Below, piece by piece: positions 2,471 through 6,692 of a DNA stretch of 22,281 bases. The translations under genes and the position numbers were made by a program. The stretch lies in IMG/VR virus record IMGVR_UViG_3300047274_000044, positions 1-22,281 of that record. One strand, 5' to 3'. This stretch comes from a virus. Below the pieces are notes generated by a model. The model saw nothing but the letters and a program-made list of their open reading frames with translations. It did not search any database and had not been told where the DNA came from. Each line of letters opens with the position of its first letter. Position 1 is the stretch's first letter.

Positions 2471-3754
2471 TTACGCCTTCATGATGTATGCCAGCGCATA
2501 GTACGGCGGCAAGTTTGCATTGGTGGCTGATGACCCCTCAGTCGAGATAGAGGTTGAAACAGAACCCGCTGGAGTTCCAGCGGATGCCGCCACAATAGTA
2601 ACGCCTGTTGTTGCTGAGTTGGTATCGATAGTCTGAACAAGACCAATATTAGAAAAATTTTGTGGGATTATGTAGGGAGTTGGTGGGCCACCAGCAGGAC
2701 CACCTGAAATGGGTATTGTATGAAAGTGACCCGGATCAGAAACAGTGTGGGTATGGGTTCCCAACGCAGAGCCCGTAAAACTAGAATTTCCTGTGTGGGT
2801 ATGAGATACCAAGGTGGCGTTTGCACTGCCGCCCGTTGCGGCAACTGCATAAGTGCTGCCCGCCCCAACAATGAATCTGTCGCGCAAATCAGGCGTACTG
2901 TTTGTGCCATCGCACAAATACCAACCACTTGGGATGGAGACAATACTGCCGTACCACATGGTAATCACGCCAGTAGGGATGATGTCCCGCACAAACGCAG
3001 TCGTAGCAATCTGTGTGGTGTCAGTCCCAACCGCAGCAGTCGGCGCAAGGGGTGCGCCTGTAAAAGTGGGGGACGCGGACAGCACAACCGCGCCCGTACC
3101 CGTAGAAGTGGTTACGCCCGTGCCACCATTGGCAACAGCCAGTGTGCCCGTTATGTCGGCAGTACTCAGGCTGATTGCATCCCAGCTTGAATTGGTTCCA
3201 TCAGTCTGAAGGTATTTGTTGGCATTGCTTGTTTGGCTTGGAAGCAGTGCGTTCAAGGCTGCGTTGGCTGTAACTTGCCCTGTACCGCCGTTGGCAATGG
3301 CCAGCGTACCCGTCAGGTTTGCGGCTTGAAGTTCGTAGAAGTTGGTTGCGTCCGACCACACCATGATCTTGGAGTTGTTGGTAACCGTAACCCCTGTACC
3401 CGCCGCTGTGGTGTTGCCAATCACAGACGAGTTGTAAATGGTCATCGAATAACCGCTGTTGTTCCAAACAATGTACGCTTTGGAAGCAGGGGGCGCATAG
3501 ACGGCAAAGGCCGCACCAGTCGTGGTGGTGAACCGCAACATGGCATACACAGCTTGGTTGCTTGCTGCCGTGGACGTTGGGCCGTTGGTGTATGTCAGGG
3601 CTTGACTGGCAGCAGTAACGCTGACCGTCTGGTATCCGGCAACGGATGTGTCTAGGATGTATGCCAGATTGCTGTTGGTCGTGTCTCCCCACGTACCCGC
3701 CTGGGTGCCATCACTGGGAAGTTCAATCCGAAGACTTGATGAATACGTACTCAT
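2471..3754 (-). CDS. Tail fibre protein with tail-collar domain
   Basis: 427 residues. The N-terminal 30 residues (MSTYSSSLRIELPSDGTQ, then GTWGDTTNSNL) are the conserved virion-attachment start of many phage fibres. Two ANGGTG motifs (about 154-159 and 208-213) occur in the shaft. A phage tail-collar domain (PF07484-like) follows at about 258-300 with the diagnostic IPSGWYLCDG, TPDLRDRFIVG. Next come HTH and HFH motifs that may bind metal in a trimeric fibre, and the typical end LPPYYALAYIMKA. AAAGGA lies 6 nt before the ATG. Expected to be a homotrimeric receptor-binding fibre. It follows the cupin gene and precedes the ATT-start gene by 2 nt. Confidence 0.88.
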   Translation of the reverse strand: MSTYSSSLRIELPSDGTQAGTWGDTTNSNLAYILDTSVAGYQTVSVTAASQALTYTNGPTSTAASNQAVYAMLRFTTTTGAAFAVYAPPASKAYIVWNNSGYSMTIYNSSVIGNTTAAGTGVTVTNNSKIMVWSDATNFYELQAANLTGTLAIANGGTGQVTANAALNALLPSQTSNANKYLQTDGTNSSWDAISLSTADITGTLAVANGGTGVTTSTGTGAVVLSASPTFTGAPLAPTAAVGTDTTQIATTAFVRDIIPTGVITMWYGSIVSIPSGWYLCDGTNSTPDLRDRFIVGAGSTYAVAATGGSANATLVSHTHTGNSSFTGSALGTHTHTVSDPGHFHTIPISGGPAGGPPTPYIIPQNFSNIGLVQTIDTNSATTGVTIVAASAGTPAGSVSTSISTEGSSATNANLPPYYALAYIMKA

Positions 3755-3770: not shown

Positions 3771-4121
3771 TCATTTGGTCAACGAAGTCCCGTAAAACCT
3801 TGATCCTTTTGGGATGTCTTTGGGGTCAACAATGTCTTCTATCCTCTCTCCGCTACGCATCGCATGTATGCAAAAACAAAGAGTATCATCTTCTGTAGCA
3901 ACAAGGTTGTGTTGGTTATCCGCAGCAATAAATATTATGGCGGGGGCTGAATAATATGACTCTTGTCCATTAACTGTAACTTTTACACCGCCTTTAGCGA
4001 GTAAAGTTGTATGGTCAAAAGTGTGTATATGGCCGTCCATAAAATCGTCTTTTTCATGAAAGCGCATCATTTTTGTCCACACGTTGGAGACAAGACTTAT
4101 TTTTATTTCTGGGTAATTCAT
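3771..4121 (-). CDS. Cupin-fold protein
   Basis: 116 residues, a single small beta-barrel. Cupin motif 1 is complete except that the usual Glu is His: G30-H31-I-H33-TFD-H37 followed six residues later by G44. Motif 2 is around P60 with H71 (DNQHNL). Four candidate metal ligands (H31, H33, H37, H71) are therefore seen. The start overlaps the stop of the oxygenase gene by 4 nt, so the two are translationally coupled. Cupins bind metals or small ligands and have many activities. Here a role in modifying a virion component or host small molecule with the neighbouring oxygenase is inference only. Confidence 0.75.
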   Translation of the reverse strand: MNYPEIKISLVSNVWTKMMRFHEKDDFMDGHIHTFDHTTLLAKGGVKVTVNGQESYYSAPAIIFIAADNQHNLVATEDDTLCFCIHAMRSGERIEDIVDPKDIPKGSRFYGTSLTK

Positions 4122-4738
4122 GCAGCTTCCTTCACTCGCTTCATAACAACATCAAATGCCGCTGATCTACGGACACCTTCATATTCTGTTGGATCAACAC
4201 CGTGTTGAACCCACGATTCCCATATACACAAATGCCCCTCTTCTGGATTAACTAGCCACCCAGGGGAATTGAAGGTATTACATTGCGCTATAGCTATATT
4301 TTTGTAGTCAAAACGCTCTTTATGAGAACGAAACATTATGCCAGGGGATTCTGGTGGCATATCAATGTAAATACACCCAGAAAAATGCATCCCCGGATGA
4401 GAGTGATAGCGATGCGCCGACCCAGGTTTCATCTCGTTTAACCAAAAATTTACAACGACTGGCGTGTAACTATCAACGTCATACCCACTGGCGGTGGCGT
4501 AGTCTTTGGCGGCAAGTTCTATAGCTGTACGAACCTTGTTGGCTTCTTCACTATCATCCAGTGCATTTGAGGGGTCCAACGCACTGTACTCAGCTAAAGT
4601 GGTTTTAAAATTTTTAGAAATGTGGGGTATTTCATGTAGATGGTCTCCCACATCGGCAAACAGCTTACGCAAATAAGGCAGAGAGTTCCCCACATTTGTG
4701 ACGCCAACAATAGTAGAAAAACCAGTGAGTAGATTCAC
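4118..4738 (-). CDS. 2OG-Fe(II) oxygenase-like protein
   Basis: 206 residues resembling the putative 2OG-Fe(II) oxygenase family known as TIGR02466/PF13759. Visible signatures are HRYHSHPGMHFSGCIYI (H109, H112, H114, with SGCIYI matching the family 'SGvyY' strand), then the distal CIWESWVQHGV with H179 as third metal ligand, and R190/R191 as candidates for binding the 2-oxoglutarate carboxylate. Such enzymes hydroxylate proteins or small molecules using oxygen and 2-oxoglutarate. The gene overlaps both neighbours by 4 nt. It sits between a tail-chaperone-like gene and a cupin gene, within the fibre region. Substrate unknown. Confidence 0.8.
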   Translation of the reverse strand: MNLLTGFSTIVGVTNVGNSLPYLRKLFADVGDHLHEIPHISKNFKTTLAEYSALDPSNALDDSEEANKVRTAIELAAKDYATASGYDVDSYTPVVVNFWLNEMKPGSAHRYHSHPGMHFSGCIYIDMPPESPGIMFRSHKERFDYKNIAIAQCNTFNSPGWLVNPEEGHLCIWESWVQHGVDPTEYEGVRRSAAFDVVMKRVKEAA

Positions 4739-5079
4739 AGTGTTTGTCCCTCACTAGCAGTTGTAGTGGTCGTTGGTGTATCAGTTGAAGTTACTACCCC
4801 CGCTGGAATAAATGTGGGTATTTCACGCGTTTTTTCTTCCGCTTCTACCCATTTAGCCATTGCTGCCACTGCCCATTCAGGCAGTTCTGTTATCGGTGTG
4901 TTTGGTTCAAGTACACCAAAGTCGTCTAAATAATATTCTAGCCAACCTGCATTTTTGTCAGTATTAAATTGCAACACTCGCACAGGCGCGGGTATGCCAC
5001 AACCGCTTAAATCTAAACCGGAAAAAGAAACACTATCTTGATAGACTGTTTTGTCGGGGACAATAATTGTGACTCTCAT
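4735..5079 (-). CDS. Small tail-region protein, tail-fibre-assembly-like
   Basis: 114 residues. The N-terminal domain (MRVTIIVPDKTVYQD ... FSGLDLSG, VRVLQFNTDKNAGWLEYY) matches a small domain found next to phage fibre genes, where 'V.G..YSGLDLS' and 'VQW' strands recur. The C-terminal 25 residues are Thr/Ser-rich and probably disordered (TSTDTPTTTTTASEGQ). Start and stop both overlap neighbours by 4 nt. A role as fibre chaperone or small tail component fits the position, but no catalytic motif supports anything more specific. Confidence 0.6.
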   Translation of the reverse strand: MRVTIIVPDKTVYQDSVSFSGLDLSGCGIPAPVRVLQFNTDKNAGWLEYYLDDFGVLEPNTPITELPEWAVAAMAKWVEAEEKTREIPTFIPAGVVTSTDTPTTTTTASEGQTL

Positions 5080-5363
5080 TTCAACATCCTCATGTGTGCG
5101 GCTTCAAGCATGACTTTGGTGTTCAACTCATTTGATTTGACCATTTCATTCCTAAAAGATTCCACAGCAGCCCCAGTCTGGCGTTGCTGCTGACTGTTCT
5201 CTACCATCAGCATAGGCAAAAATGTAATAGAACAGCCCCACTTGTCAATTTCTTGGCCTGTGTTTGGGTTTTGCCCTCGCAACTGTATAAACCAAGTGCA
5301 CTCTAACTTCTTGCAAGGTTCAAAATTATTAAGGGGACAATTGTCTTTTACTTCAAGCTGCAC
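5076..5363 (-). CDS. Conserved small protein with four cysteines
   Basis: 95 residues. The N-terminal half carries C9, C17, C22 and C44 in the pattern NCPLNNFEPCKKLECTWF ... DKWGCSIT, suggesting a zinc or disulfide knot. The C-terminal half is helical and charged (SFRNEMVKSNEL ... AAHMRMLK). The same kind of protein occurs near tail genes of other environmental phages as a hypothetical protein. It starts 3 nt after the upstream fibre and overlaps the next gene by 4 nt. Function unknown. Confidence 0.6.
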   Translation of the reverse strand: MQLEVKDNCPLNNFEPCKKLECTWFIQLRGQNPNTGQEIDKWGCSITFLPMLMVENSQQQRQTGAAVESFRNEMVKSNELNTKVMLEAAHMRMLK

Positions 5364-5366
5364 GAT

Positions 5367-6692
5367 TTAATCCTTTGAAGCAATGATGAAATCAATATAC
5401 TTGACTGCAAGGTTGATTGCAGTGCCTGTAAACGTGTGCGTGTGAGCATCTTGTGTGTGCGTGTGCGCGTTTATTGTTAAGGTGCTGGTCACAGTAATGG
5501 TGTGATTGTGTGCATTTTGCGTGTGATTGTGTGACGTTCCAGTAAAAGAACTTGATGTGCTGATAGAGTGGTTGTGTGCGTCTTGCGTGTGATTGTGTGA
5601 TGACCCAGAAAACGAACCTGAAAAACTCCCACCAGTGTGGCTGTGACCACCCCCACCGCCAGCGTTAGCAGTGGCGTAGTTTCCATAACCCGTCCTATAG
5701 AACACAGGTGCCGCTGACCCGCCGCCCGGCCCGGCTGCTTGGTTGGATATAGTGTGCGCGTGCGCGGGTATCTCGCCAGTACCAAGGGTCGTTGCCCCAG
5801 ATGTACCCACGGAACCACTGATGGAACCCCCAGCCGTGGCAGCTTGGTTGGTTGCCGTTGTGTTCCCTGAAGACGACGACGAAGATACAGAGCCCCCAGC
5901 CGTGGCAGCTTGGTTGGTTGCCGTTGTGTTCCCTGAAGACGCTGGAGAACTCACAGAGCCTGTGGCTGTAGTGTTTTGGTTAGTTGCAGTGGTGCTAGAA
6001 AGGGTTCCTGCTACTGACTGACTTGCAAATGCGGTTGAAAACGCAACCGTACCACCAGTAGACACAGTGCCCGTAACAATACGCAATGCGCTGTCATTTA
6101 ACGCAGCCGTAGTATCTTTTGTCCAACCAGTAGGCGCAGCGGTCTGTTTAAAGATCATCACTGTGCCAGAAGGTATCGGGTTTGTTACGCTGCTGGCAAT
6201 TGTGATTGACCCCGCTCCATTCGTAATGGTTATACCTGTGCCTTGAGTCAGCGTTGCTCTCGTAAACCCAGTCCCATTACCAATATCAACCTGTCCGTTT
6301 GATGGTGTAGAAGTTAATCCTGTACCACCAGAAGCAACTGGTAAAACTGAACTATTTGTGGCAGTTAATACGGCCCCGTCAGCATAAACCGACCTTTCAG
6401 CCGGGTACGTGACAAACACATCTTTGGTGCCTGGTGTAAAAATAACTAAATTTCCAGCGTTGCTTGACTCTAAAACCGTGTCCCTTGAGAGCGTTGTGCC
6501 CACCAAAGTGTATGTACCGATTCCCACTTCCCACTCAGAACCAGTTTGCCCCGCAATGGTGTAGTAAGTGGTGTTTGCGTCACCAATAGCCGAGAAAGAT
6601 TGAAAACCAGTCGCTGCCCCAAGCAAAGTCACCGTTCCCGTACCCGTTGTAGAGGTGGTTTCTTTAACTCTATCTTTTAGTACTAAAGCCAT
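5367..6692 (-). CDS. Tail fibre protein with HxH-rich C-terminal shaft
   Basis: 441 residues. The N-terminus (MALVLKDRVKETTSTTGTG ... FQSFSAIGDANTTYY) is a common phage tail attachment domain. An ASGGTGLTS motif lies near residue 125, then VMIFKQTAAPTGWTK, a collar-like strand. A low-complexity region then carries three 22-residue copies of GNTTATNQAATAGGSVSS. The C-terminal third has eight HxH motifs (HAH, HSH, four HNH, two HTH) spaced by Ser/Thr/Gln, as in needle-like fibre tips where paired histidines bind iron. Probably a trimeric receptor-contacting fibre. Followed 3 nt later by the four-cysteine protein. Confidence 0.82.
   Translation of the reverse strand: MALVLKDRVKETTSTTGTGTVTLLGAATGFQSFSAIGDANTTYYTIAGQTGSEWEVGIGTYTLVGTTLSRDTVLESSNAGNLVIFTPGTKDVFVTYPAERSVYADGAVLTATNSSVLPVASGGTGLTSTPSNGQVDIGNGTGFTRATLTQGTGITITNGAGSITIASSVTNPIPSGTVMIFKQTAAPTGWTKDTTAALNDSALRIVTGTVSTGGTVAFSTAFASQSVAGTLSSTTATNQNTTATGSVSSPASSGNTTATNQAATAGGSVSSSSSSGNTTATNQAATAGGSISGSVGTSGATTLGTGEIPAHAHTISNQAAGPGGGSAAPVFYRTGYGNYATANAGGGGGHSHTGGSFSGSFSGSSHNHTQDAHNHSISTSSSFTGTSHNHTQNAHNHTITVTSTLTINAHTHTQDAHTHTFTGTAINLAVKYIDFIIASKD
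5827..5940 (-). repeat. 48-bp exact direct repeat, 66-bp period
   Basis: Positions 5827-5874 and 5893-5940 are identical over 48 bp, separated by 66 bp (22 codons), inside the HxH fibre gene. A third, diverged copy follows at about 5959-5997. They encode the N-T-T-A-T-N-Q-rich units of the shaft. Exact identity suggests a recent duplication and a site prone to copy-number change. Confidence 0.85.

Follow-up and report, generated by a model that had tools for sequence, protein, structure and literature searches.

A small four-histidine cupin and a 2-oxoglutarate (2OG)-type oxygenase, encoded side by side among tail-fibre genes, form a coupled arrangement that recurs in phages. Both are real genes whose products retain their metal ligands; the cupin represents a conserved family of viral proteins, and its oxygenase partner turns over from locus to locus. 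Our preferred reading, which we rate at not quite an even chance, is that the two are part of a modular cassette, expressed late, for the finishing of tail-fibre proteins, in which a constant cupin would be combined with an exchangeable oxygenase. The window, that is the whole stretch of DNA that was analysed, is the virus record IMGVR_UViG_3300047274_000044 with a length of 22,281 bases. Open reading frames, here and in the loci compared, were called mechanically, and some of their starts are therefore wrong.

In the direction of transcription, the upstream fibre gene is followed by the genes for a 95-aa and a 114-aa protein, the oxygenase, the cupin and the downstream collar/fibre gene (Table 1). 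The original prediction had the oxygenase and cupin genes overlapping by 4 nucleotides, which is borne out by the reading frames, and the metal ligands that it had listed for both proteins are all found as numbered. Overlaps of 4 nucleotides are also present between the 114-aa gene and the oxygenase gene and between the 95-aa and 114-aa genes, and purine-rich stretches resembling ribosome-binding sites lie upstream of the oxygenase start (AGGG) and the cupin start (AAGGAAG). This gene order corrects the setting given in the original prediction. The 114-aa protein has no match in Pfam or PHROG, so that its description as "tail-assembly-like" is based on its position and its relatives. These relatives are found in cupin loci, several of them immediately 5' of the cupin. 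The upstream fibre protein contains many histidine-rich repeats (HNHTQDAHNH and similar), which are possible metal-binding stretches.

Table 1. Features of the cassette and its surroundings in the window
Feature	Position	Strand	Matches and residues
Upstream tail-fibre-like gene	5367..6692	-	phrog_31660
95-aa gene of the cassette	5076..5363	-	Relatives (52-67% identity) in cupin loci, among them L185, L319 and L329
114-aa gene	4735..5079	-	39-46% identity to relatives in L184, L285, L313, L334 and L336
Fe(II)/2OG-type oxygenase, 206 aa, GTG start	4118..4738	-	PF13759 / TIGR02466 / phrog_81; HxH (112, 114), H179, R190
Shared ATGA in which the oxygenase stops and the cupin starts	4118..4121	-	4 nt
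Small single-barrel cupin, 116 aa, ATG start	3771..4121	-	Four-histidine site H31/H33/H37/H71; conserved C84 and H86
Downstream tail-collar/fibre gene	2471..3754	-	phrog_1800

Membership of the oxygenase in the PF13759/TIGR02466 family is secure at the level of sequence. The protein scores above the cut-offs of PF13759 (E 6.8e-21, 75 bits against 27) and TIGR02466 (70.3 bits against 62.5), matches phrog_81 (E 1.1e-27) and has homologues of solved structure (3bvc and 2rg4). H112, H114, H179 and R190 are invariant in all six rows of an alignment of the window protein with five phage proteins, to which it is 22-26% identical, and the HxH..H..R pattern is likewise present in all three rows when it is aligned with the two solved members. 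W99 and N101 are common to the family and the window protein as well. What sets the latter apart, beyond its low identity to the phage members, is its place in a two-gene unit with a cupin. Neither the window oxygenase nor the aligned members of the subfamily have the canonical HxD/E..H facial triad, as all of them carry HxH. Because the middle residue of the triad is a histidine in the sampled subfamily, dependence on 2OG is suggested by the family rather than by a canonical triad, and the 2OG-dependent reaction that the family name implies is a probable one for the window protein.

On its own, the window oxygenase matches 163 phage records. A single-protein pattern scan of IMG/VR with it returned no relative, and a profile built from the window protein and the five phage proteins had no match among the 2735 reading frames of all 160 sibling loci; PF13759 itself found nothing above its cut-off in 50 sibling records and one weak match below it. 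The closest relative that was found (35% identity over 158 residues, PF13759 E 2.2e-19) is encoded in L306, two genes 3' of a four-histidine cupin. It keeps HxH..H..R, so that the loss of ligands in close homologues that would have spoken against the original prediction is not seen here. L306, L308 and L312, which are identical in the genes compared, all carry this relative. In L306 the oxygenase adjoins a 247-aa protein (L306:6263-7003, phrog_7084, unknown function), a possible further partner, and the PF13759 oxygenase of L342 adjoins a 249-aa protein (L342:2921-3667). L342 also has three consecutive 2OG oxygenase genes according to Pfam (L342:3680-6149), with a fourth that looks PF13759-like by eye.

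The cupin is less easily recognized from its sequence. Its match to Cupin_2 (PF07883; E 0.0029, 17.7 bits) stays below the gathering cut-off of 27.2, which a relative from another branch of the family passes (L197, 35.4 bits). In its AlphaFold model (pLDDT 87.9), it is a single double-stranded beta-helix barrel that matches many cupins with Z scores of 12-13.5 and rmsd values of 1.8-2.7 over 87-92 residues; TM1459 and KdgF, a cupin of pectin-sugar metabolism, are among the top matches. Judged by this model, the small 116-aa protein is predicted to have the cupin superfamily fold.

The likeness to TM1459, a small single-barrel manganese cupin of Thermotoga maritima (1vj2, Z 12.0), extends to the predicted metal site. 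According to an excerpt of the report on this protein, TM1459 binds manganese through H52, H54, H58 and H92 (PMC5031596), and the spacing of these residues (2, 4, 34) equals that of H31, H33, H37 and H71 in the window cupin. Cys106 of TM1459 lines the cavity, and Cys84 is invariant in the phage cupin family. The same excerpt describes alkene cleavage by TM1459 on styrene derivatives (PMC5031596). However, TM1459 is not a phage protein, its structural identity to the window cupin is about 11-20%, and a sequence search of the PDB with the window cupin gave no row for it.

Relatives of the cupin were found with profiles. A single-protein pattern scan of IMG/VR and a tblastn search of phages with the window cupin returned none, and its sole plasmid match (39% over 61 residues) is to a plasmid of Massilia violaceinigra B2 that carries phage genes (N4-gp56 capsid, tail fiber). 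The plasmid cupin keeps all four histidines, and its gene is overlapped by a gene for an aspartyl/asparaginyl (AspH-type) hydroxylase (L168:867-1734; PF05118 E 1.6e-7). A first profile, made from the plasmid cupin aligned with two phage cupins, found 246 relatives in IMG/VR, and a second one, built from the fibre-region branch, yielded 394. When a genome collection was scanned in this manner, there was one match, L344, on a contig that also has phage-like genes (a collagen-like fibre and the upstream fibre protein). The family is thus mostly viral. We aligned 60 cupins from the fibre-region and terminase-linked branches, namely the window cupin, 54 of 63 cluster representatives (nine with doubtful long starts were omitted) and cupins from 5 of 63 loci of the other branch. 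M19, H31, H33, H37, L41, G44, P60, H71, A75, C84 and H86 are invariant in all rows, so that a loss of the cupin ligands is not seen either.

More distant relatives are the cupins of podophage type, some of which are annotated as short tail fibers (phrog_12032, phrog_24280; ORF43 of phiAP1). They are related to the window cupin by profile scores, weakly for the window protein itself (phrog_12032, E 0.039) and with E values of 7e-5 to 1e-20 for three of its relatives, and an excerpt mentions an RmlC-like cupin domain in the short tail fiber of phiAP1 (PMC8703784). Unlike the window cupin, they do not keep the four-histidine site: in the eight members that we read, the fourth histidine is absent and one or two of the other three are kept. 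One of these podophage-type cupins is fused to a SET domain (L171:3420-4181; PF00856 E 6.4e-6), a family with protein-modifying members, and L179:3390-4268 has a C-terminal part that is SET-domain-like by likeness to L171 only.

To what extent the pairing recurs was read from 98 cupin loci of the tail-fibre branch (17 of the best 80 of the 246 relatives, all of the best 80 of the 394, and L344). As many of these loci are near-identical, we also counted by 63 clusters of cupins at 90% identity. To detect oxygenases, we clustered the neighbours from position -4 to position +4 and made models of the clusters, three of which (C3, C5 and C67) are oxygenase clusters; since the models miss other oxygenase families, all counts of oxygenases, on both sides of a comparison, are lower bounds. 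An oxygenase of one of the three clusters is the direct neighbour of the cupin in 36 of 98 loci and 24 of 63 clusters, and thus the co-occurrence outside this phage that the original prediction had called for is there. Counting L306, L308 and L312, an oxygenase lies within three genes of the cupin in 40 of the 98.

The position of the oxygenase is specific. Among reading frames of 90-300 aa, it was found in 33/74 at +1, directly downstream of the cupin, 7/64 at +2, 3/77 at -1 and 0-2 at each of the other seven positions. The +1 position thus compares with 15/462 for the nine others together (p 7e-21), or 21/46 with 13/318 when clusters are counted (p 4e-13). Cupin and +1 oxygenase genes overlap at 26 of the 33 junctions, 14 times by 4 nucleotides, and 33 of the 36 direct neighbours retain the HxD/E..H..R pattern. 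The three that have lost it (L181:501-968, L182:3922-4473 and L183:4341-4895) still keep the 4-nucleotide overlap with the cupin. A 51-aa oxygenase-like piece in L296 was left out of the count. Apart from lysis and fibre genes, the +1 genes that can be named are nearly all 2OG-type oxygenases; the others are two kinase-like genes, one glycosyltransferase-like gene and one TusA sulfurtransferase gene directly 3' of the cupin (L193:3535-3789, PF01206 E 3e-13), and many +1 reading frames are unnamed.

Two controls point in the same direction. In 54 sibling fibre regions that were not selected for a cupin, 3 of 154 reading frames are oxygenases, all three in loci with equal match scores and without an adjoining cupin; one further oxygenase-like gene, 3' of the fibres in the cupin-less sibling locus L079 (L079:17113-17673, PF13640 E 0.02), is below the cut-off and was missed by the models. 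A further 53 loci, 52 of them readable, were selected by a domain of an upstream protein. Here 10 of 27 loci with a cupin match, but 0 of 25 without one, have an oxygenase no more than 2 kb away (p 5e-4), or 7 of 21 and 0 of 15 when equal tails are counted once (p 0.014). Several loci of this set are the same contigs as in the best 80 of the 394 cupin relatives, L389-L391 were scored as cupin-less yet their contigs hold a cupin farther off (L337-L339), and the cupin-less L380 has an oxygenase-like gene by eye that the models missed.

The partner is not always of the same kind. C3, the commonest one, was below every Pfam cut-off in the members tested, and it has an HxD motif, a distal histidine and two arginines that are invariant in 18 aligned members (the three with lost ligands are excluded). 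A model of the member in L191 (pLDDT 89.3) matches PHD2 (E 1.7e-7) and the prolyl 4-hydroxylases (P4H) of P. putida and a chlorella virus (vCPH), and C3 partners are therefore predicted to fold like prolyl hydroxylases, with the HxD..H..R residues in common. This fold was predicted for the partner in a relative, while the window oxygenase belongs to the PF13759 type. For C5, the tested members gave matches to PF13640 and phrog_61. The least certain oxygenase is C67, which has HxD and a distal histidine by eye and matches phrog_2954, labelled as ferrochelatase. The same label is attached to phrog_3531 (L334:4047-4631), and the matching protein has an oxygenase-like HxD and distal histidine by eye. 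Families with a prolyl-hydroxylase fold and those of AspH type include protein-modifying enzymes. As for viruses, an excerpt calls their use of P4H cryptic (PMC9301287). Collagen-like repeats were considered as a prolyl-hydroxylase substrate and found no support, as they occur in 3 of 36 loci with an oxygenase and in 12 of 62 without one, and the window has none.

In the majority of cupin loci, the models detect no oxygenase within three genes (58 of 98). Some of these loci keep the gene order of the window: L185 has a relative of the 95-aa gene, a small gene in the slot of the 114-aa gene, the cupin and the fibre gene with no oxygenase in between, L319 has the same arrangement with one more gene ahead of the fibre, and L184 retains the cupin together with a relative of the 114-aa gene. 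The cupin should therefore have a role of its own. Taken together with the placement of the window oxygenase's relative in L306, L308 and L312, these loci suggest that the cupin is the constant part, and the oxygenase an insert that is optional and can be exchanged. Where the slot lacks a four-histidine cupin, it holds a 169-178-aa protein (L360:3300-3806, L364, L373, L377, L380, L388 and L389), and in some cases a cysteine-dioxygenase-like cupin or a PF10118 metal hydrolase comes next. By profile comparison, this slot protein resembles the cupin weakly (E 2.3e-5, probability 76).

The protein encoded directly upstream of the cupin often ends in a similar way, with a tail like IPVTxL (in L180-L196 and L260-L339). 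A short motif of the kind I/L-P-V/T is present within the last eight residues of 29 of 71 distinct tails, in 13 BLAST clusters, whereas the numbers are 11 of 431 for seven other positions taken together and 43 of 1525 for sibling reading frames, the pattern having been defined after the tails had been seen. In the sibling control, clusters C10, C11, C15 and C17 had no matches, and C2 had one, which is untagged. The tail goes with the cupin and not with the oxygenase, since it occurs in 15 of 22 clusters with an oxygenase and in 24 of 39 without one, and in three loci that have the oxygenase first, the gene before the oxygenase carries it, twice with two or three residues after it. Its codons vary, so that the likeness is at the level of the protein and a DNA signal is disfavoured as its cause; a distant C-terminal domain may be common to some of the tail-bearing clusters. 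An exclusive link between motif and cupin is not supported. Where this cupin is missing, the relatives end in different short hydrophobic tails, of which some fit the looser pattern, and in most of the cases inspected the 169-178-aa protein follows. The proline is variable, too, being replaced by G, Q, N or A in certain relatives. In the 114-aa protein of the window, the stretch EIPTFIPAGVV ends 18 residues before the C-terminus and is not terminal. We regard the tail as a lead rather than a result.

Other explanations for the cassette have to be weighed. It might make or alter a small molecule or a sugar of the host surface, and thereby change adsorption or exclude other phages. The cupin would then resemble a sugar isomerase or handle uronates, and the oxygenase would hydroxylate a sugar or metabolite. 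We consider this unlikely, and these roles for the two proteins equally so. The fold matches to KdgF and TM1459 fit such a function, as do a related phage cupin that comes close to the MannoseP_isomer cut-off (L173, 23 bits against 23.6) and the glycosyltransferase-like +1 gene of L316, which was identified by eye. There is also a precedent, since a review of jumbo phages, in the part available, describes 2OGFeDO, halogenase and cupin-like genes that occur together in cyanophages, and for which capsule decoration or a secondary metabolite has been proposed (PMC7824862). In S-SZBM1, such a cluster lies near a tail-fiber-assembly gene, which adds to the resemblance; however, its cupin gene encodes 234 aa and not a short four-histidine cupin, and it comes with a halogenase, whereas no halogenase adjoins the pair in the window. 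Moreover, no sugar-nucleotide or transferase gene is regularly the direct neighbour of the cupin in the 98 loci, and the location among late fibre genes and the protein-hydroxylase-like fold of the commonest partner speak against this explanation.

Somewhat unlikely as well is the idea that the cupin is a structural protein of the tail tip or fibre with a structural metal, and that the oxygenases are independent passengers that have landed repeatedly in a permissive slot. It would account for the scores, mostly weak, that family cupins reach against PHROGs with the names short tail fiber protein and tail fiber adhesin, for the eight podophage-type relatives with their incomplete histidine sites, for the slot proteins that take the place of the cupin, and for the 62 of 98 loci that have no oxygenase at positions +1 or -1. 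It does not explain why the nameable +1 genes belong so predominantly to one enzyme class, and the four histidines, Cys84, His86 and Met19, invariant in 60 rows from both branches, exceed what a structural barrel needs. That ordinary auxiliary genes have become neighbours by chance in a hypervariable fibre region is highly improbable. 2OG oxygenases are indeed common in aquatic phages, and the many phage records matched by the window oxygenase alone illustrate this, but chance adjacency does not predict an enrichment at one position, with overlapping gene ends and for several oxygenase families, or the difference (10/27 against 0/25) in loci that were selected in another way.

The reading that we prefer, a cassette for finishing fibre proteins, can be put as a model. 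The cassette would comprise a fibre gene, a small fibre-associated protein and the four-histidine cupin, to which one or several Fe(II)/2OG-type oxygenases, or none, are added. Its products are presumably co-produced at a late stage of infection. The oxygenase would consume O2 and 2-oxoglutarate, with Fe(II) as its metal, and hydroxylate side chains of a fibre or fibre-associated protein while the virion is being assembled or before that. The cupin would bind a metal and either act on this target as well or dock to it, possibly by way of the tail at the C-terminus of the immediately upstream gene product. The original prediction that oxygenase and cupin may act jointly on fibre residues agrees with the order of the genes and with a C3 fold that resembles prolyl hydroxylases. 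The two are not obligate partners, given the many cupin loci in which no oxygenase was detected within three genes. A more specific version, in which a fibre-associated protein presents a C-terminal docking tail, the four-histidine cupin reads this tail and an exchangeable hydroxylase modifies the tip, is speculative and in our view rather doubtful, and so is the proposition that goes with it, that this hydroxylase may be of the PF13759, P4H-like, PF13640 or AspH type.

Cyanophages have many copies of 2OG oxygenases whose role is not known, and DNA repair is one published guess for such phage enzymes, according to an excerpt (PMC9146016). Among the titles that we saw in the literature on phage cupins, 2OG-Fe oxygenases, tail fibers and hydroxyproline, none describes an oxygenase-cupin cassette of tail fibres. 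A cassette that is compact, keeps its cupin while its oxygenases interchange, and has a fixed location in the fibre region offers a defined place and a short list of targets for asking what these oxygenases do. The recurrence of a barrel protein and, often, an iron-dependent hydroxylase next to the fibre genes of many freshwater phages suggests that phages themselves give their host-binding parts a chemical finish. If the docking-tail version were true, phages would diversify their receptor-binding parts not only in sequence but also in chemistry.
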